Positions 39,224-47,830 of a DNA stretch of 64,000 nt are shown here, piece after piece. The first letter of the stretch is position 1, and each line of letters begins with the position of its first letter. A program made the position numbers and the translations under genes. Where the stretch lies: positions 1,736,001 through 1,800,000 of the forward strand of contig NC_013740.1 in assembly GCF_000025305.1 (NCBI RefSeq). Reading direction: 5' to 3'. Origin of the DNA: Acidaminococcus fermentans DSM 20731 (GTDB taxonomy: Bacteria > Bacillota > Negativicutes > Acidaminococcales > Acidaminococcaceae). The notes under the pieces were generated by a model. The model did not search any database. It was given only the letters and a program-made list of their open reading frames with translations, and had not been told where the DNA came from.

Positions 39224-39724
39224 TCAGATCCCCAGCTTCCTGATCAGGTCGATGATGTACTTTGTGGTTTTGTCGAAATCTTCGTCCACAGGAATGGCAT
39301 AATCACAATATTTCAGGTACAGGGGCATCCGTTCCCTGTACAGCTGGGTCAGCCGGTCTTCTGCGGAATTCAGCAGGGGCCGGCTCACTTTGTCCACGCA
39401 CCCGGCGATGGCTGCCAGGTCCCGGTTCAGGAAGAAGATCTTCCCCGTTTCCTGGAGATAGGCCATATTTTCCGGGCGCTTCACCACGCCGCCCCCGCAG
39501 GAGATGATGATGCCATCTTTGGCGGCCAGGCTGCGGATGGCTGCCGTCTCCGCGTCCCGGAATACATTCTCTCCTTCCTGGAACAGGCTCTTGATGGTCC
39601 GTCCGGTCTGCTGCACCACCACATCGTCCGCATCTATGACCGGACGCCCAAGCACCTTGCTGAGTTTCTTTCCAATGGTGGTCTTGCCCGCCCCGGGCAT
39701 GCCGATCAGTACAATATTAGCCAT
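39224..39724 (-). CDS. aroK: shikimate kinase
   Basis: A 166-residue P-loop kinase, the fifth step to chorismate. Walker A is GMPGAGKTTIGKKL. The DxD is IDADDVV; shikimate binding uses FRDAE (an Arg) and CGGGVV; RPLL carries the lid Arg. It is the last gene of the aromatic operon and overlaps aroE by 8 bases. Confidence 0.95.
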   Translation of the reverse strand: MANIVLIGMPGAGKTTIGKKLSKVLGRPVIDADDVVVQQTGRTIKSLFQEGENVFRDAETAAIRSLAAKDGIIISCGGGVVKRPENMAYLQETGKIFFLNRDLAAIAGCVDKVSRPLLNSAEDRLTQLYRERMPLYLKYCDYAIPVDEDFDKTTKYIIDLIRKLGI

Positions 39725-40541
39725 GAAATGAAGCCTCCAGTTGTTTCATGATTTCCGGAATCAGATCCGGATCCAGTTTCCTCTGCTGCCAGATTTCCTC
39801 TGAAGCCACAGCCTGGGCCACCAGCATGTACAGTCCATTGCAGGTCTTCGCCCCATTTTTGCGGGCGTCAGCCAGGAACTGGGGTTCCCTGGGATTGTAG
39901 ATGATGTCCACTGCCGCTTCGGCGCCCACTGTAAAGTCTGCCGGCACCGGGCTCACTCCCACCTTGGGGAACATACCCACCGGAGTGGTGTTGATGACCA
40001 CCTGGCTGCCGGGCTGTGCTTCGGCATAAAGCCGTACCCGTGCATCCGGCCGCTGGGCCAGGAAATGCTGCAGGCTCTCTTTCGCCTGCTGGGGGTGACG
40101 GGACAGGATCTGGACCGTCTCCGCCTTCCGGTCGGCCACCACCTGCAGCACGGCCTTGGCCGCACCTCCATTGCCCAGCACGGTTACACGTTTCCCGGTC
40201 AGGGAAATGCCGGCCGCCTGGAGCATCCGGTCGAAGCCCATATAGTCCGTATTGTAGCCTTTCACCCCTTCCGGCGTGAAAAACAGGGTATTCACCGCTC
40301 CGATCTTTTCTGCTTCCGGTGCAATGTCCTTCAGATAGGAAATGACAGTTTCTTTGTAAGGAATGGTCACATTGCTGCCGGTAAGCCCCTCCCGGTTTTC
40401 CCGTACAAAGGCTGCCACCTGGTCCGGCTCCCGTTCCAACAGGGTATAGGTATCCTGGCTGCCCAGGGCCCGGAAGATGGCTGCATGGATTTGGGGCGAC
40501 AGGCTGTGCCCCAGTACCCGTCCTAACAATCCGAATTTCAT
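39717..40541 (-). CDS. aroE: shikimate dehydrogenase
   Basis: A 274-residue NADP-type enzyme that reduces 3-dehydroshikimate to shikimate. Substrate motifs are LGHSLSPQIH and NVTIPYKE (catalytic Lys); the NADP loop is LGNGGAAKAVLQ; NTTPVGMFP and AVDIIYNP are characteristic. It overlaps pheA by 4 bases (ATGA) and aroK by 8. Confidence 0.96.
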   Translation of the reverse strand: MKFGLLGRVLGHSLSPQIHAAIFRALGSQDTYTLLEREPDQVAAFVRENREGLTGSNVTIPYKETVISYLKDIAPEAEKIGAVNTLFFTPEGVKGYNTDYMGFDRMLQAAGISLTGKRVTVLGNGGAAKAVLQVVADRKAETVQILSRHPQQAKESLQHFLAQRPDARVRLYAEAQPGSQVVINTTPVGMFPKVGVSPVPADFTVGAEAAVDIIYNPREPQFLADARKNGAKTCNGLYMLVAQAVASEEIWQQRKLDPDLIPEIMKQLEASFHG

Positions 40542-41389
40542 GGTCTGGCTTCCTTTCCGTGATCCGCCCGGTAGTTCCCCAGGATCTTACAGTCCGTGGT
40601 ATCCTCCGGCAGGTCCGCCAGGGCATTCTGCACGGCCTGATCCGTCAGATGGCCGGTGATATCCATATGGAAATAATATTCCCAGGGCCGCCCGGGGATG
40701 GGGCGGGATTCAATGTTGGTCATGTTGATCTGATACCGGGCGAAATGGGACAGGACCCGGTACAGGGACCCGGGCTGGTGTTTCAAGCTGACGATCAGGG
40801 TAATCTTGTCCGCATCTGCGGCCAGTTCCTGCTGCCGGCTGATGATGATGAACCGGGTGTAGTTGCTCTGGTTGGTATTGATGCCCCGGGCCAGGATGGT
40901 AAGGCTATAGGGTCCGGCCGCCTGAGCCCCGGCCACAGCCGCCTTATGGATGTCCTTTTTCCGGGCCACCATTTCCGCCGCCTTGGCCGTATTGAAATAA
41001 TTGAACTGCTGCATGGCCGGATGTGCCTTGAAAAAGGCCTGGCACTGGGAAAAGCCCTGGGGATGGGAATAGACTTCTGTAATATCCTCCAGCTTCGCTC
41101 CGGGCAGGCCCAGCAGGCAGTGTTCCACTTTCACGATTTTCTCGCCCACGATGCTGGCCCCATACCGGCGCACCAGGTCATAGACCTCCGTAATGCCGCC
41201 GGTGGAGGAATTCTCGATGGGCAGCACCCCATACCGGACAGTACCGTCCATGACTGCCGTCACCACATCTTCAAAAAGCATGAAGTTCCGGGCTTCCACC
41301 GGCTGACCAGAGAAGTACTGCTGCAGGGCCAGGTGGCTGTAGGCCCCCGGCACCCCCATATAGCCTACAAGGATGGATTCCTGTGTCAT
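40538..41389 (-). CDS. pheA: prephenate dehydratase
   Basis: A 283-residue prephenate dehydratase, catalysing the step from prephenate to phenylpyruvate. The catalytic domain spans residues 1 to about 185 (GVPGAYSHLA, LPIENSSTGGI, NYTRFIII). A C-terminal ACT domain (about 200-275) has LKHQPGSLYRVLSHFARY and the Phe-binding ESRPIPGRPWEYYFHMD. The ACT domain implies feedback inhibition by phenylalanine. There is no chorismate mutase domain. It overlaps aroE by 4 bases. Confidence 0.96.
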   Translation of the reverse strand: MTQESILVGYMGVPGAYSHLALQQYFSGQPVEARNFMLFEDVVTAVMDGTVRYGVLPIENSSTGGITEVYDLVRRYGASIVGEKIVKVEHCLLGLPGAKLEDITEVYSHPQGFSQCQAFFKAHPAMQQFNYFNTAKAAEMVARKKDIHKAAVAGAQAAGPYSLTILARGINTNQSNYTRFIIISRQQELAADADKITLIVSLKHQPGSLYRVLSHFARYQINMTNIESRPIPGRPWEYYFHMDITGHLTDQAVQNALADLPEDTTDCKILGNYRADHGKEARP

Positions 41390-41393
41390 ATGC

Positions 41394-42482
41394 CTACCCC
41401 CGTTCCGCCATATAGAACAGATCCAGCAGGGTCCAGGCCGTTACGGCCTCCACCACCGGGATGGCCCGGGGCAGGATGCAGGGATCATGACGACCGGTGA
41501 CTTCCAGGGTGGTGTCTTCGCGGGTCACCACGTTCACCGTATGCTGGGTCTTGCCGATGGAAGGGGTGGGTTTGATCACCAGCGTGAAAACCAGAGGCAT
41601 GCCGTTGGTGATGCCCCCGGTGACACCGCCGTTGTGGTTGGTGGTACACACCACCCTGTCGTCCCGGTACTGCATGGGATCATTGGATTCACTGCCCCGC
41701 ATCTCCGCCAGGCCGAAACCGTCCCCGAAAGCAATGCCCTTCACCGCAGGTACGGAGAACAGGGCGTGGCTCAACCGGCTTTCCACAGAGTCGAAATAGG
41801 GTTCCCCCAATCCCACAGGCAGGCCGATGGCCATACATTCGATAAGCCCGCCCACGGAGTCTTTTTCCTTCTGGGCAGCAGTCACAGCCTGGGCCATGGT
41901 TTCCCGCACGTCTGGATTCAGCACCGGCAGGGTCTCTTCCCCCATGGAGCGCAGGGTCTCCGCCGTTTCTCCCAGGGGATTGAACCGGTCATCCCTGATC
42001 CCGGCCAAGGCCGCCACATGGGCCCCCACGGTCACACCCTTTTTCGCCAGCAGCTGCTTGGCCACGGCGCCGGCAAACACCAGGGGTGCCGTCAGGCGAC
42101 CGGAAAAACTGCCGCCGCCCCGGTAATCGTTGCAACCGTGGAATTTCACATAGCCCGGGTAATCCCCGTGGCCCGGCCGCATGATTTCCTTCATTTTGCT
42201 GTAATCCCTGGAATGGGCATTGGTATTCACGATCCGGGCGCACAGGGCCATGCCCGTGGTCTTTCCGTTGAAGAACCCGCTTTCGATGGTGAAGCTGTCC
42301 GGTTCCTTCCGGGGCGTAGCCAGCTTGCTGCTGCCCGGTGCCCGCCGTTTCATTTCTTTCTCAATGGCCGCCAGATCCAGTTCCACCCCGGCCGGCAGAC
42401 CGTCCATGACCACTCCGATGGAGGGCCCGTGAGATTCTCCGAAAATGGTCAGCTTGACCCGCTCACCCATTACACTGCTCAT
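41394..42482 (-). CDS. aroC: chorismate synthase
   Basis: A 362-residue enzyme, last step of the common pathway (EPSP to chorismate, reduced FMN needed). Signatures are FGESHGPSIGVVMDG, YRGGGSFSGRLTAPLVFAGAV and GVTGGITNGMPL. AGGAGG precedes ATG 42482, inside aroA (20-base overlap), consistent with translational coupling. Confidence 0.97.
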   Translation of the reverse strand: MSSVMGERVKLTIFGESHGPSIGVVMDGLPAGVELDLAAIEKEMKRRAPGSSKLATPRKEPDSFTIESGFFNGKTTGMALCARIVNTNAHSRDYSKMKEIMRPGHGDYPGYVKFHGCNDYRGGGSFSGRLTAPLVFAGAVAKQLLAKKGVTVGAHVAALAGIRDDRFNPLGETAETLRSMGEETLPVLNPDVRETMAQAVTAAQKEKDSVGGLIECMAIGLPVGLGEPYFDSVESRLSHALFSVPAVKGIAFGDGFGLAEMRGSESNDPMQYRDDRVVCTTNHNGGVTGGITNGMPLVFTLVIKPTPSIGKTQHTVNVVTREDTTLEVTGRHDPCILPRAIPVVEAVTAWTLLDLFYMAERG

Positions 42483-43755
42483 ATTGTCCTCCTAAGGTCT
42501 TGAAATCCTGCCAGAATTCCGGATAGGATTTGGAAACGCATTCGGCCCCCATCAGGGTCAGGGGTTCCCGGCACAGGATGCTGGCCACCGCCAGGCTCAT
42601 GGCGATCCGGTGGTCGTTCCAGCAGTCCACGGTGCCCCCGGACAGTTCTTCCACCCCGTCGATGGAAAGGCCGTCCGGTTTTTCCGTGATCCGGGCTCCC
42701 AGTTTGTTCAGTTCCGTGGCCATGGCCTTCAGCCGGTCACATTCCTTCAGCCGCAGCCGCTCCGCATGGATGATTTCCGTGTGGCCCTGGCTGAGGGCTG
42801 CCGCCACCGTCAGCACCGGAATGATGTCCGGACAGTCGGCAGCATCGATGGTGGTGCCGATGGGCGTGCCCGGCCGGCTCACCAGTCTGTCCCCTTCAAA
42901 GACCACCTGTCCTCCCATTTTCTGGAGGATGGGGATGATGGCTTTATCCCCCTGGAGGGAATCCGGATCCATGCCCAGAAGGCTGATGGTCCGGCCCAGC
43001 ATCCCGGCGGTGAGCCAGAAGGCGGCCTGGGAATAGTCCCCTTCCACGGCCCCTTCCCGGGGCTGGTACTGCTGGTTCCCGGGGATCCGGTACCGTCGGT
43101 AGTTTTCGTGTTCGATGGTGATGCCGTATTTCTGCAGGGCGGAAAGGGTCAGGGCGATGTAGCTCTGGCTTTCCAGTTTCCCGGTGATTTCCAGGGTGGA
43201 TTCCCCTTCCAGCAGGGGCAGGGCAAACAGCAGCCCGCTGATGAACTGGCTGCTCACATCCCCGGGCAGGGTAAAATGCCCGGGCCGGAGCGGACCCTGG
43301 ACCGTCAGGGGAAAATTGTCCCTGGCGCTCCCTTTTCGGAACACCAGGCCCTGCTGGCGGAAAATGACTTCATAGGGTTCCAGGGGCCGACTGCCGAGTT
43401 TCCCGGATCCCTGGAAGGTAAAGGCATCCCCGGTAAGAGCCGCCAGAGGGATCAGGAACCGGAGGGTGGACCCGGATTCCCCGCAGTCCATTTCCGTCCC
43501 CACCTGGTGAGGACGCGTGCCTTCCACGGTGAAAGCCGTCCGGCCCCCCGTCTCTTCCCGGCTGGTGATGACGGCCCCCAGCTGCCGGAGACAGTCACAG
43601 GTGGCCAGGATATCCCGACTGACGCTGACTCCCTCCACCTGGCTGGAGCCCTGGGCCAGGGCCGCACAGACGAGGGCCCGGTGCCCCATGCTCTTGGAGG
43701 AAGGCACCCGGAGAGTCCCGGTCAGGGACCGGGGTTCGATACGCAGTGTGGTCAT
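42463..43755 (-). CDS. aroA: 5-enolpyruvylshikimate-3-phosphate synthase
   Basis: A 430-residue EPSP synthase. Motifs are PSSKSMGHRALVCAAL (shikimate-3-phosphate site), DCGESGSTLRFLIPLA (PEP site, here with the LRFL variant seen in class II-like enzymes), VEGDYSQAAF and RLKECDRLKAMATELNKLG. It joins shikimate-3-phosphate with PEP. It lies between aroB and aroC, overlapping aroC by 20 bases. Confidence 0.96.
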   Translation of the reverse strand: MTTLRIEPRSLTGTLRVPSSKSMGHRALVCAALAQGSSQVEGVSVSRDILATCDCLRQLGAVITSREETGGRTAFTVEGTRPHQVGTEMDCGESGSTLRFLIPLAALTGDAFTFQGSGKLGSRPLEPYEVIFRQQGLVFRKGSARDNFPLTVQGPLRPGHFTLPGDVSSQFISGLLFALPLLEGESTLEITGKLESQSYIALTLSALQKYGITIEHENYRRYRIPGNQQYQPREGAVEGDYSQAAFWLTAGMLGRTISLLGMDPDSLQGDKAIIPILQKMGGQVVFEGDRLVSRPGTPIGTTIDAADCPDIIPVLTVAAALSQGHTEIIHAERLRLKECDRLKAMATELNKLGARITEKPDGLSIDGVEELSGGTVDCWNDHRIAMSLAVASILCREPLTLMGAECVSKSYPEFWQDFKTLGGQYEQCNG

Positions 43756-43759
43756 GATC

Positions 43760-44824
43760 TCATCCTTTCACATAGGGCCGCAGATCGGCAAAATCCACCT
43801 TTTTCAGCATCCGCTTCCCGATGGCCGGTACGATCACCAGGGTGATCTGATTGCCCCGCTTCTTTTTGTCCATGGTGATCCCTGCCAGCACATCCTCATC
43901 GCTGATGGGATCTTCCGTGGGAATGTCATACTTCTGGAGCAGCCGCCGGATCCGGTCCGCGGTTCCGGGTTCCGTCAGCCCCATTTTTTCCGTATTCCGG
44001 GTCAGCCGCACCATGCCGATGGCCACCCCTTCCCCGTGGGTGTATTTTTCATAGTGGTAATACCGTTCCACCGCATGACCGATGGTGTGGCCGAAGTTCA
44101 GCACCATCCGGGCTCCCACGTCCCGTTCATCCTCTTCCACCACCTTCACCTTGATCCGGCAGCAGGCGGCACTGATTTCCGCCGCATGGGCCAGGACGTC
44201 CTCATCCCCGGAAAAATCCTCCAGGGCTGCGAACAGGTCCGGATCCCCGAAGGCCGCGCATTTGATCACTTCCGCCAGGCCATCGTGGAGATACCGGCGG
44301 TCCAGGCTCCGGAGCAGGACCGGATCCATCAGCACCCCTTTGGGCTGGTAGAAGGCTCCCACCAGGTTCTTCCCTTCCGGCAGGTCCACTGCCACCTTGC
44401 CTCCCACGCTGCTGTCGATCTGGGCCAGCAGGGTGGTGGGCACCTGGATGAAATCCACCCCCCGGAGGAAGCTGGCTGCCGCAAAGCCCCCCAGGTCACC
44501 GGGAACGCCTCCCCCCAGGGTGATCACCAGATCGCTGCGGGTCATGCCGAAATCCGCACAGGCCCGGACCATCTTCCCAAAGGTGTCCAGGTTCTTGTGG
44601 TCTTCCCCGGGTTCCATCACCAGCCGGCGCACCTGGAACCCTTCCGCCCGGAGCTGCTGTTCCAGATCCGCCCCGTACAGGCCGTCCACCGTCCGGTCCG
44701 TGATCACCGCCGCCTTGTCCCCTCGGGACAGAGCCCGGATCTTTTTCCCGAATCCGGACCAGGAATGGGGTTCGATTGCAATGGTATAGGATTCTTTGCC
44801 CAGATCAACGAAGATTTTTTCCAT
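43760..44824 (-). CDS. aroB: 3-dehydroquinate synthase
   Basis: A 354-residue NAD/metal-dependent enzyme, second step of the pathway. Motifs are LGGGVPGDLGGFAAASFLRGVDFIQ, split here as LGGGVPGDLGGF and FIQVPTTLLAQIDSSVGGK, plus LNFGHTIGHAVE and HGEGVAIGM (metal His residues). It overlaps tyrA by 20 bases at its start. Confidence 0.97.
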   Translation of the reverse strand: MEKIFVDLGKESYTIAIEPHSWSGFGKKIRALSRGDKAAVITDRTVDGLYGADLEQQLRAEGFQVRRLVMEPGEDHKNLDTFGKMVRACADFGMTRSDLVITLGGGVPGDLGGFAAASFLRGVDFIQVPTTLLAQIDSSVGGKVAVDLPEGKNLVGAFYQPKGVLMDPVLLRSLDRRYLHDGLAEVIKCAAFGDPDLFAALEDFSGDEDVLAHAAEISAACCRIKVKVVEEDERDVGARMVLNFGHTIGHAVERYYHYEKYTHGEGVAIGMVRLTRNTEKMGLTEPGTADRIRRLLQKYDIPTEDPISDEDVLAGITMDKKKRGNQITLVIVPAIGKRMLKKVDFADLRPYVKG

Positions 44825-45677
44825 AAAACATGTCCCTTCTTTTCTTTTTCGCCTTGTCCATCATCTGTTCCAGTTCTTCCCGGTCATCCTGCTGGAGGGC
44901 GCTTTTCCAGTGTTCCAGTTCCTGTTCCAGTTTGTTGATTTCCTGGATCACCGGGCCCTTGTTCAGCAGGAACAGGTCGCTCCACAATTTGGCGTTGATG
45001 TCCGCCACCCGGGTGGCGTCCCGGAAGGACCCCGCCACGAAATATTTGGTGTTTTCCTGCATGGAATCACTGTTGATCAGGGAAACCGCCATCACATGGG
45101 GCAGATCGCTGGTGTAGGCGATGATGCTGTCGTGTTCCTCCACCGTCAGCTCCACCACCCGGGCACAGCCCAGTTCATAGGCCATGTTCCGGAGCCAGTC
45201 CCGGTGTTCGGGCCGGTTCCCTTCCCGGTGGATCAGGATGAAATTGGCCCCCTGGAAAATCTGGGAGGTACTCTGGCTGTAGCCCTTTCCTTCCCGTCCC
45301 GCCATGGGATGGGTTGGTACAAAATCCATCTCCGGTCCCAGCAGAGCATCCACCTGATCCGGAATGGATCCCTTGATCCCCATCACGTCCGTAAGCAGCA
45401 CATCTTTTTTGAAGTACTTCACATGGTCCCGGACAAAGGGGACAAAGGCGCCAGGGTACATGCAGCAGATGATCACATCCGCCTCCCGGAGCCGTTCCGG
45501 ATCTTCATCCGCCAGTTCCGTCACATACCCTTCGTCCAGGGCCATCAGGGAAACGATGTGGTTCCGGTCCATGCCGATGATCCGTTTCACCTTCTGGCTT
45601 TTCAGGGCTTTGGCATAGGATCCGCCGATCAGGCCCAGTCCCACAATGGCAACAACCGTATCCTGCAGTTTCTTCAT
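44805..45677 (-). CDS. tyrA: prephenate dehydrogenase
   Basis: A 290-residue NAD(P)-dependent enzyme that makes 4-hydroxyphenylpyruvate from prephenate. The Rossmann motif is VGLGLIGGSYAKAL. HPMAGREGKGYSQS carries the catalytic His. AYTSDLPHVMAVSL is conserved. No ACT domain is present, and the C-terminus is Lys/Arg-rich. It follows aroF and precedes aroB. Confidence 0.95.
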   Translation of the reverse strand: MKKLQDTVVAIVGLGLIGGSYAKALKSQKVKRIIGMDRNHIVSLMALDEGYVTELADEDPERLREADVIICCMYPGAFVPFVRDHVKYFKKDVLLTDVMGIKGSIPDQVDALLGPEMDFVPTHPMAGREGKGYSQSTSQIFQGANFILIHREGNRPEHRDWLRNMAYELGCARVVELTVEEHDSIIAYTSDLPHVMAVSLINSDSMQENTKYFVAGSFRDATRVADINAKLWSDLFLLNKGPVIQEINKLEQELEHWKSALQQDDREELEQMMDKAKKKRRDMFYGKNLR

Positions 45678-46778: not shown

Positions 46779-46807
46779 CAAAAAAAGCAGACTCGCAAGG
46801 AGTCTGC
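46779..46807 (-). terminator. attenuator terminator before aroF
   Basis: Stem GCAGACTC / GAGTCTGC (46787-46794, 46800-46807), 5-base loop, then TTTTTTT on the minus strand. It lies 44 bases after the leader peptide stop and 64 bases before aroF. Confidence 0.85.
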
Positions 46808-46850
46808 TTCAGGGTTTCCTGCTGATGAAACCTCCGGAACGGCCGGATGT

Positions 46851-46976
46851 TCAGTCTCTCTTTACGGTGGAGAAGGTATGCAGTTCATGGCAGCCAAAAT
46901 AACCAAAGCCAAAATAATAGCTCTGGGTAAAAGGAAAGCCATATGCAGTTCCTTCGATCCATCTGGAAAGAGCCAT
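46851..46976 (-). CDS. Tyr/Phe-rich leader peptide of aromatic operon
   Basis: A 41-residue open frame between the operon promoter and the terminator. It starts at ATG 46976 with AAGGCGGG 7 bases upstream and stops with TGA at 46851-46853. The centre reads TAYGFPF, then SYYFGFGYFG, so 11 of 17 residues in that stretch and the next are Tyr or Phe; about 12 aromatic residues occur in 41 codons. This fits a ribosome-stalling leader peptide that senses Tyr-tRNA and Phe-tRNA. Two alternative frames over the same bases are less well supported: one is Trp-rich but lacks a ribosome site, the other is aliphatic. The aromatic operon downstream makes both Phe and Tyr. Confidence 0.8.
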   Translation of the reverse strand: MALSRWIEGTAYGFPFTQSYYFGFGYFGCHELHTFSTVKRD

Positions 46977-47012
46977 CTGTCAACCCGCCTTTACTACTGT
47001 TGGAATGAATCT

Positions 47013-47041
47013 ATAATACCCCTGTTTACACAATCCGTCAA
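47013..47041 (-). promoter_or_regulatory. aromatic operon promoter
   Basis: TTGACG (47036-47041), 17-base spacer, TATTAT (47013-47018) on the minus strand, 37 bases before the leader peptide start. Confidence 0.75.
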
Positions 47042-47113: not shown

Positions 47114-47716
47114 TTATCTCTCCAACGCCACATCCAGGTCTTCCAGGGCGTGGCCGGTGGCATCGGAGAAGCGGACTCTGAGGTTCCCGTACCGGGGCAG
47201 CTTCTTTGCCGGGATGGTCACCACATGTTCCTCGCTGAGAGCTTCGCTGCCGTCATTCTGGGTACCGGTGGGGTCCTGGACTGCCAGGGTCACATTCAGC
47301 AGCCGGCCGAACAGTTCCGCCTTGGTGATGGCCAGCTTCCCGTTCTGTCCGTTGGTGTTCATGGCCGCATAGAGCACCAGCTGGTTGGCATAGGCGGCTC
47401 CCCCATACCGCTGCCGGGCCTGCCGGATCTTTTCCTGCTGGCTGGTCAGCTTCTTGATGCTGGCCAGTTCCGGTCCTTCCTGCCCCTCTCCGGAAGGGAG
47501 AAATGCGGTGCACACCAGGCCCTGTACAGCCTTTTCACTGTCATGCTCCCAGTCCGTATGGGCATCCGCCGCCTGATAAAGGACCTTTCCGTCCCGGACG
47601 ATCCGTTCCGATACAAACAGCTCCCCATCCGCCAGTTTCGGCCGTTCCGCCGCATATCCCGGCACGGCAAAAAGCCCCGCCAAAAGGGCCACCGCCAATG
47701 TTTTTTTCCATTCCAT
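47114..47716 (-). CDS. secreted hypothetical protein
   Basis: A 200-residue exported protein with a clear signal peptide (KKTLAVALLAGLFAVPGYAA, cleavage after AYA-like GYAA). The mature part is soluble and mixed; I recognise no domain. Visible features are VQGLVCTAFLPSGEGQEGPE, a helical KIRQARQRYGG, and C-terminal beta-like segments (NLRVRFSD). The start is ATG 47716, with AAGGAG upstream; GTG 47725 lies inside the ribosome site. The -10 TATAAT (about 47762) is extended. Periplasmic or cell-surface location is inferred. Confidence 0.65.
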   Translation of the reverse strand: MEWKKTLAVALLAGLFAVPGYAAERPKLADGELFVSERIVRDGKVLYQAADAHTDWEHDSEKAVQGLVCTAFLPSGEGQEGPELASIKKLTSQQEKIRQARQRYGGAAYANQLVLYAAMNTNGQNGKLAITKAELFGRLLNVTLAVQDPTGTQNDGSEALSEEHVVTIPAKKLPRYGNLRVRFSDATGHALEDLDVALER

Positions 47717-47830
47717 ATCCTTCACTCCTTGTGGGTGCCCCGCACCCGGATTTTTCTCTCCCTATTATACACTGTTTTGACCAGAGAGTCAGCGGGAGTT
47801 TTAAGTGATTAAGTGGTTGGGTGGTTGAAT

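Follow-up and report, generated by a model that had tools for sequence, protein, structure and literature searches.

A Tyr/Phe-rich leader precedes the aro operon

The window analysed here is a stretch of 64,000 nucleotides from Acidaminococcus fermentans VR4T (Negativicutes, Bacillota); positions are counted within it, and the leader and operon lie on its minus strand. A promoter, TTGACG-N17-TATTAT (47013..47041), matches the consensus at 10 of 12 positions, and a purine-rich ribosome binding site, AAAGGCGG (46985..46992), stands before the ATG of an open leader peptide frame of 41 codons (41 aa; MALSRWIEGTAYGFPFTQSYYFGFGYFGCHELHTFSTVKRD; 46851..46976). Ten codons of the frame specify Tyr or Phe and one specifies Trp, and its translation contains an aromatic run, YGFPFTQSYYFGFGYF (46896..46943). 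Between the frame and the first gene, aroF, a terminator scan and a predicted fold both place an intrinsic terminator stem-loop of 11 pairs with a T tract directly 3′ (46784..46810), which folds at −15 kcal/mol (z −4.86). A first-pass annotation of this DNA had claimed a promoter of this sequence, a 41-codon Tyr/Phe frame with a good ribosome site and a strong terminator before aroF; all three are found here, and they recur in related genomes as described below. The leader peptide matches no NCBIfam family. An alternative frame with Trp codons (LFWLWLFWLP) was dropped, as by eye a stop interrupts it in a relative (L007). Directly upstream of the leader promoter, a frame at 47114-47725, also on the minus strand, begins with what by eye resembles a signal peptide and has no NCBIfam match.

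The terminator is followed by aroF, for DAHP synthase (TIGR01361; 45702..46715); tyrA, prephenate dehydrogenase (44805..45677); aroB, 3-dehydroquinate synthase (43760..44824); aroA, EPSP synthase (42463..43755); aroC, chorismate synthase (41394..42482); pheA, prephenate dehydratase (40538..41389); aroE, shikimate dehydrogenase (39717..40541); and aroK, shikimate kinase (39224..39724). The scores of tyrA, aroE and aroK fall below curated cut-offs, so these three were named from their best matches and the order of the genes. From the gene spacing, we infer that the eight genes form a single transcript. Because they include both tyrA and pheA, and thus the Tyr and the Phe branch, and no trp gene, a sensor of Tyr plus Phe would fit this operon.

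The leader is conserved in the genus and in relatives

All nine Acidaminococcus genomes in the collection carry aroF and, upstream of it, the terminator and the frame with its aromatic run. Each also has TTGAC at the corresponding place and a purine-rich ribosome site of the GGCGG type (AAGGCGG, AAGGGCGG or AAGGGACGG; GGGACGG in L010). Tyr and Phe swap for one another in the core of these leaders, with few other core changes. We looked in the genus for close relatives that keep the terminator and have lost the frame or its aromatic codons, and found none, as the nine members retain both.

The Negativicutes leader set consists of DNA upstream of aroF drawn from a search of 300 genomes, comprising some of its loci and extra regions. 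Seven loci with short upstream DNA or another aroF copy (L020, L021, L023, L024, L026, L027 and L032) were replaced by L050-L056. From the 84 regions assembled, L055, L066, L100, L105 and L109 were set aside because no leader could be seen or the region was too short to hold one, which left 79. A terminator was called in 76 of the 79 (none was called for L031, L079 and L101), and two leaders of family f28 (L107 and L108) were left out to give 74, since they differ in terminator and layout and lack the antiterminator element discussed below. A further 20 regions yielded 15 visible leaders and one doubtful case (L123); L110, L111 and L120 have none, and L127 is too short.

In the 74 leaders, core columns are aromatic and Tyr and Phe exchange there (Y42 F19, Y59 F13, F48 Y23 and Y52 F13; a further column is F68 L6). 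Conservation across families is strong for the core S-x-G-Y-F, with a near-invariant Gly. Leader length and the C-terminal part vary, and the frame drifts except in its density of aromatic codons. Leaders of the home family, f1, encode Phe by TTT 173 times and by TTC 13 times, and Tyr by TAT 124 times and by TAC 63 times; by contrast, the A. fermentans operon genes use TTC 66 and TTT 23 times for Phe, and TAT 35 and TAC 32 times for Tyr.

A leader HMM built from 31 leaders finds the leader in the A. fermentans genome at E 8.5e-16, with the next matches at E 0.8 and 1.1. It matches 114 of 380 Negativicutes, including 51 of the 59 genomes of the same family. Of the eight HMM-negative family members, all but G234 and G252 were checked: in G075 and G155 a leader is present by eye (L074, L075), and G065, G175, G222 and G243 have only weak aroF matches and may therefore lack aroF. 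Leaders of f28 and similar genomes (L107, L108, L115, L116, L122 and L124-L126) are shorter, and several end in TGKELF or TGKGLF plus a few residues. Where read, they have a different terminator (GCTACCCG...) and no antiterminator element, perhaps reflecting a separate design.

A hairpin predicted within the sensor codons

A second structure, absent from the first-pass annotation, is supported by paired changes among the aligned leaders: a predicted hairpin, P1 (CCAGAGCUA/UGGCUUUGG; 46903..46926), that is built of codons of the aromatic run, with U-rich Tyr-Phe codons coming next. In A. fermentans, the 45-nt region folds at −13 kcal/mol (z −2.29). The arms of P1 read UAGCUGG-GCUA/UAGC-CUGGUUA in family f7 and, elsewhere, CCAAGGCUA/UAGC-CUUGG, UAGCUAUAGCU/GGCUAUGGCUA and others. 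At column −4, Ser is encoded by AGC in 46 of 46 cases and Gly by GGC in 20 of 20, a fixity for which we offer pairing within P1 as the reason.

Across 99 leaders, P1 energy compared with permutation of codon order gives a mean z of −2.35 (z < −2 in 64 of 99); comparison with synonymous resampling is less clear (mean z −1.06), and P1 is unsupported in L069, L070, L072, L074 and L075. A consensus fold of the ungapped core recovers P1 in the genus and in f7 and almost nothing over f1 or all leaders, we think because registers differ, and a register-aware pair count was used in its place. In a one-register set of 51 distinct windows, 81% of cells are paired, versus 24-44% when the partner is slid by 1-3; column shuffles of the same windows give 0.753, with a maximum of 0.775. 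Both sides have changed in 7 of 12 pairs. The Tyr-Phe codons after P1 have at least four T among six bases in 96 of 99 leaders, and a simple terminator scan flags P1 as terminator-like. These features suggest that P1 and the U-rich codons probably make RNA polymerase pause, giving the ribosome time to catch up.

A proposed antiterminator and the position of the ribosome

Comparison of relatives also points to an antiterminator, the part of the switch missing from the first-pass annotation. Past the aromatic run, the aligned leaders have in common an element that reads CGUAAANAGA, exactly or nearly so, in the home family and AUGAG in several others, and that is complementary to the top of the terminator 5′ arm and its loop. 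In A. fermentans, the proposed element, CCGUAAAGAGAGACUGA (46851..46867), consists of the frame end and the stop codon and lies about 28 nt past the aromatic run; its partner, CUCCUUGCG (46794..46802), takes in the upper 5′ arm of the terminator, the loop and the start of the 3′ arm. The predicted pairings are CGUAA-GAG with CUC-UUGCG in Acidaminococcus, CGUAAA-AGA with UCUUUUACG in relatives, UUAAUGAGU with ACUCAUUAA in family f2 and CAUGAG with CUCAUG in f7. The frames of L030 and L041 stop short of the element, which argues that the element is an RNA signal. Relatives differ in both the sequence and the length of the RNA that separates the element from the terminator. Two competing hairpins had been reported at about 46820-46850. 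One, a small hairpin between the element and the terminator (46833..46847), is present in the predicted fold; the other, a possible stem GGUUUC/GAAACC (46813..46832), can be drawn from the sequence and falls outside the fold, which pairs these bases otherwise. We propose that the antiterminator is neither of these but the element at 46851..46867.

In 52 of the 74 leaders, the best duplex between the mid-region and the terminator top starts 25-32 nt after the last aromatic codon, where dinucleotide shuffles lead one to expect 8.7. None of the eight f35 leaders falls in this interval, their best duplexes lying nearer, at 15-24. Because the interval was chosen after seeing the first data, it was tested on fresh leaders: 53 loci found by a P1 pattern have an aro gene downstream, 24 of them were already in the set, and 29 were left, which are partly non-independent since several come from one genus, Monoglobus. 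Duplexes start at 25-32 in 12 of these 29 (4.5 expected) and at 12-24 in 17, and duplex energy reaches p≤0.05 in 18. In the first set, duplex energy alone against the top of the terminator arm reaches p≤0.05 in 23 of 74 leaders (1 of 13 in f7), and with the whole arm as target the signal is weak (20 of 76; mean z −1.25). Swapping elements and terminators across families gave p 0.071, which is suggestive and not significant. In A. fermentans, the element is slightly outdone by another stretch in pairing with the terminator arm (−11.0 versus −12.0 kcal/mol). Comparison of leaders thus indicates a candidate antiterminator overlapping the terminator arm; the prediction is weaker in A. fermentans than in its relatives, being weak for A. 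fermentans alone and, by energy, for f7.

To relate this pairing to the ribosome, we computed, for nascent RNA reaching up to the terminator loop, how far the terminator top pairs with upstream RNA. With the ribosome at the last aromatic codon versus the stop codon, predicted pairing is 0.78 versus 0.32 in f1 (47 leaders), 0.69 versus 0.20 in f35 (8 leaders) and 0.61 versus 0.38 in f7 (13 leaders), and it drops by more than 0.1 at the stop in 68 of the 74 leaders. A. fermentans shows a weak contrast (0.44 versus 0.23). In a scan of its frame, pairing is 0.44-0.77 for A-site positions as far as 6 codons beyond the run and 0.10-0.14 at 8 to 12 codons; later values are 0.38, 0.41 and, at the stop, 0.23. 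In the nine genus members, pairing falls once the A site has moved beyond the run by about 7 to 11 codons; two of them, L007 and L010, regain 0.66-0.70 before the stop. Moving the ribosome to the stop changes pairing little or not at all in L030, L064, L073, L074, L075 and L096, and leaders with early stops do not fit a simple masking model.

At equilibrium, and even for a ribosome placed at the last aromatic codon, the finished terminator is predicted to win in 69 of the 74 leaders, so that in those leaders the decision would have to be made kinetically, during transcription; equilibrium folding was rejected as the switch for most leaders. The equilibrium fold does switch in L039, L071, L076, L080 and L083, with the terminator at 0.00-0.51 when the ribosome is at the run and 0.90-0.97 when it is at the stop. 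A trpL-like prediction for the ribosome-free leader was set aside as well, since it gave no consistent answer (genus values scatter from 0.01 to 0.72).

T-boxes and leaders at aroF

A T-box senses tRNA charging ahead of a terminator by binding tRNA directly, without any need for translation. That T-box control would be the usual expectation in a Firmicute was an apt remark of the first-pass annotation, as the T-box model finds 17 sites in the A. fermentans genome, 11 of them above cut-off. The genes after ten T-boxes are pheS, trpE, valS, thrS, ileS, glyQ, leuA, ilvC, serA and cysE; the T-box before trpE is itself below cut-off (56 bits), as is the protein match of trpE (517.3 bits; cut-off 517.7). 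None of the 4227 Rfam families, the T-box family RF00230 included, matches at gathering score in the window, and a scan of six loci of relatives gave no relevant match, only four sub-threshold matches of unrelated families (up to E 1). The leader would resemble the T-box as a charging sensor before a terminator, and the T-box serves before pheS and trpE here and before aroF in some leader-less relatives; they differ in that the T-box binds tRNA without translation and in that RF00230 is unmatched in the A. fermentans leader. Among six leader-less Negativicutes loci, a T-box stands before aroF in three (L105, L110 and L120), and none was found there in L100, L109 and L111. T-boxes at L192 and L194 (G000) precede two membrane proteins that by eye resemble relatives of bile-acid:sodium symporters and are possible amino acid or keto acid transporters.

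Probable attenuation by the ribosome and alternative readings

A short frame, a ribosome site, cognate codons, an intrinsic terminator and cognate biosynthetic genes downstream are among the features of an attenuator of the pheL and trpL kind, and the A. fermentans leader has these. As read from sequence, the frame, its codons, the terminator, the complementarity across relatives, the conservation and the downstream gene content make it very probable that this leader is a ribosome-mediated transcription attenuator through which the aro operon senses the supply of Tyr and Phe. The earlier suggestion of ribosome stalling as the readout of Tyr and Phe tRNA charging draws support from the nine genus members, all of which keep frame, codons and terminator; stalling itself, like pausing, termination, readthrough and a response to Tyr and Phe in the cell, is what we infer.

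P1 and the U-rich Tyr-Phe codons would probably hold RNA polymerase until the ribosome arrives. When Tyr-tRNA and Phe-tRNA are ample, the leading ribosome would cross the aromatic codons and cover the element at 46867-46851; the terminator would then form, and transcription would halt before aroF. If charged Tyr-tRNA or Phe-tRNA runs short, the ribosome would stall within the aromatic run and leave the element, about 28 nt on, free. The free element could then pair with the upper 5′ arm and loop of the terminator as they leave RNA polymerase, ahead of the 3′ arm, and transcription would continue.

Other accounts of the locus can be weighed against the same observations. If the short frame encoded a functional small protein, with the terminator merely ending a short constitutive transcript, strong conservation of the S-x-G-Y-F core across families would be expected; a protein constraint does not, however, require the fixed AGC and GGC codons at column −4, which P1 does, and with a variable length and C-terminal part, frames that end before the element in L030 and L041 and no NCBIfam family, such a role is very improbable. 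The same core, with its near-invariant Gly and fixed aromatic motif, could instead act through the nascent chain, so that attenuation, still ribosome-mediated, would depend on arrest by free Phe or Tyr rather than on tRNA charging. Yet Tyr and Phe exchange at most core positions, which is unusual for an arrest motif, and the codon-level constraint of P1 explains the Ser and Gly; we judge arrest of this kind unlikely in the extreme, if a shade less so than a small protein.

Control of the terminator by a metabolite- or tRNA-binding RNA, that is, a riboswitch or T-box with the frame incidental, would account for the structured region from element to terminator (91 nt with the terminator included; z −2.96). 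The stretch between element and terminator nevertheless varies in sequence and length, and the Rfam scans described above returned nothing relevant at this locus or in the six loci of relatives, even though T-box models do detect 17 sites elsewhere in the genome, so that we regard an RNA sensor as the most improbable of these alternatives. The efficiency of leader translation, or Rho, might also regulate the operon without codon-specific stalling, and the early-stop leaders, which misfit simple masking, could be taken that way; but aromatic codons stay dense in a frame that otherwise drifts, and intrinsic terminators are found in 76 of 79 leaders, which makes this as improbable as the small protein.

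Relation to known systems

Attenuators of the pheL and trpL type in enterobacteria have a translated leader rich in the regulated amino acids, a terminator, an alternative antiterminator and a cognate operon; in trpL, region 2, the 3′ arm of the codon hairpin, is also used by the antiterminator. The A. fermentans leader resembles them in its short translated frame of cognate codons, its terminator, its candidate alternative antiterminator and the cognate biosynthetic operon. Unlike them, it mixes Tyr and Phe in one sensor run, has no Rfam match and precedes a whole chorismate-Tyr-Phe gene set; unlike trpL, the hairpin over its codons shares no 3′ arm with the antiterminator element.

The first-pass annotation was right that enterobacteria provide a precedent, but this understated the case, since several papers describe leader peptides in Firmicutes as well: His leaders in place of T-boxes (PMC2965389, PMC9413887) and a Leu-rich leader of S. 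aureus (PMC5794164). By those descriptions, they too are leader-peptide attenuators, for other amino acids and operons. Nearest to the A. fermentans leader, again by description, is the uORFC-13-1 motif, which the accessible part of PMC8632094 places upstream of aroF, with a uORF holding at least one Phe codon, an adjacent terminator and another paired substructure, in 24 examples from only Acholeplasma and environmental DNA. Both stand before aroF with a Phe-codon uORF and a terminator; that part of the description has no Tyr run or antiterminator, whereas the A. fermentans leader family has a Tyr run and a predicted antiterminator. A study of Actinobacteria (PMC1262725) reports that Phe or Tyr operons lack a conserved RNA structure upstream. 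We found no account of an aro leader family in Negativicutes or Clostridia in the open literature; subscription papers, mostly outside this coverage, may describe it. As far as these searches go, this is a wide leader family with a known mechanism and a distinctive sensor hairpin that is apparently undescribed.

Similar leaders elsewhere and before other genes

By sequence likeness, similar leaders stand before aro genes in many Negativicutes and Clostridia and some Bacilli. Across 398 genomes of the phylum, the leader HMM matched 23 at E 0.01, 19 of them outside Negativicutes. The five strongest of the latter (L186-L190) all precede aro genes, a DAHP synthase gene in four (cut by a contig or stretch end in L186) and aroB in one; weak matches near E 0.001-0.01 may be chance. 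A 27-base P1 pattern matched 100 stretches in the genome collection, 80 of which were listed as loci. Among these 80, 53 have a same-strand aro gene within 4.5 kb, including loci in Monoglobus, Alkalibacter, Oscillospiraceae, Trichococcus palustris and Tepidibacillus, and 27 have no aro gene nearby. Bacteroidota, Legionella and others were matched too; these, with no aro gene nearby, were taken as chance. Several of the 27, among them L213, L238, L243, L259, L261, L262, L267 and L268, instead resemble genuine leaders that sit where a contig or locus ends or ahead of genes of other kinds.

These leaders would place a regulator at the entry to the shikimate pathway in Acidaminococcus, Phascolarctobacterium, Dialister, Megasphaera and many Clostridia, where T-boxes are the textbook expectation. 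A broader interpretation, plausible though short of probable in our estimate, is that they form an old aro leader family spread across Firmicutes; that its sensing codons are double-coded, giving a readout of charging and also folding into a hairpin that, together with a U-rich tail of its own, acts as a pause or as a weak first terminator and can be cleared only by a translating ribosome; and that leader and T-box replaced each other at aroF during evolution. The occurrence of a T-box or a leader peptide at the same gene within one class offers a natural experiment on the replacement of charging sensors, and codons that double as sensor and hairpin would be a clear case of overlapping protein and RNA constraint.

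Additional leader copies precede aroA (L171, L172), a shikimate kinase gene (L174), tyrA (L176, L177, L181) and pheA (L180). In L213, L259 and L262 (Anaerosolibacter and Intestinibacter bartlettii), leaders of the family stand before a sodium:solute symporter gene and a lactate-racemase-family (LarA) gene; these extra leaders predict new aromatic amino acid functions, and the two products may handle aromatic amino or hydroxy acids. A second leader copy at L173 (G051) lies before a frame of 144 codons that encodes two ACT domains as a pair (PF19571), possibly an aromatic amino acid sensor or enzyme subunit. One further match, L175 (E 3.2e-4), has no aro gene visible beside it and is probably chance. 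In G080, three leader copies with terminators (L098, L099 and L178) lie within 4 kb around tandem aroF genes.
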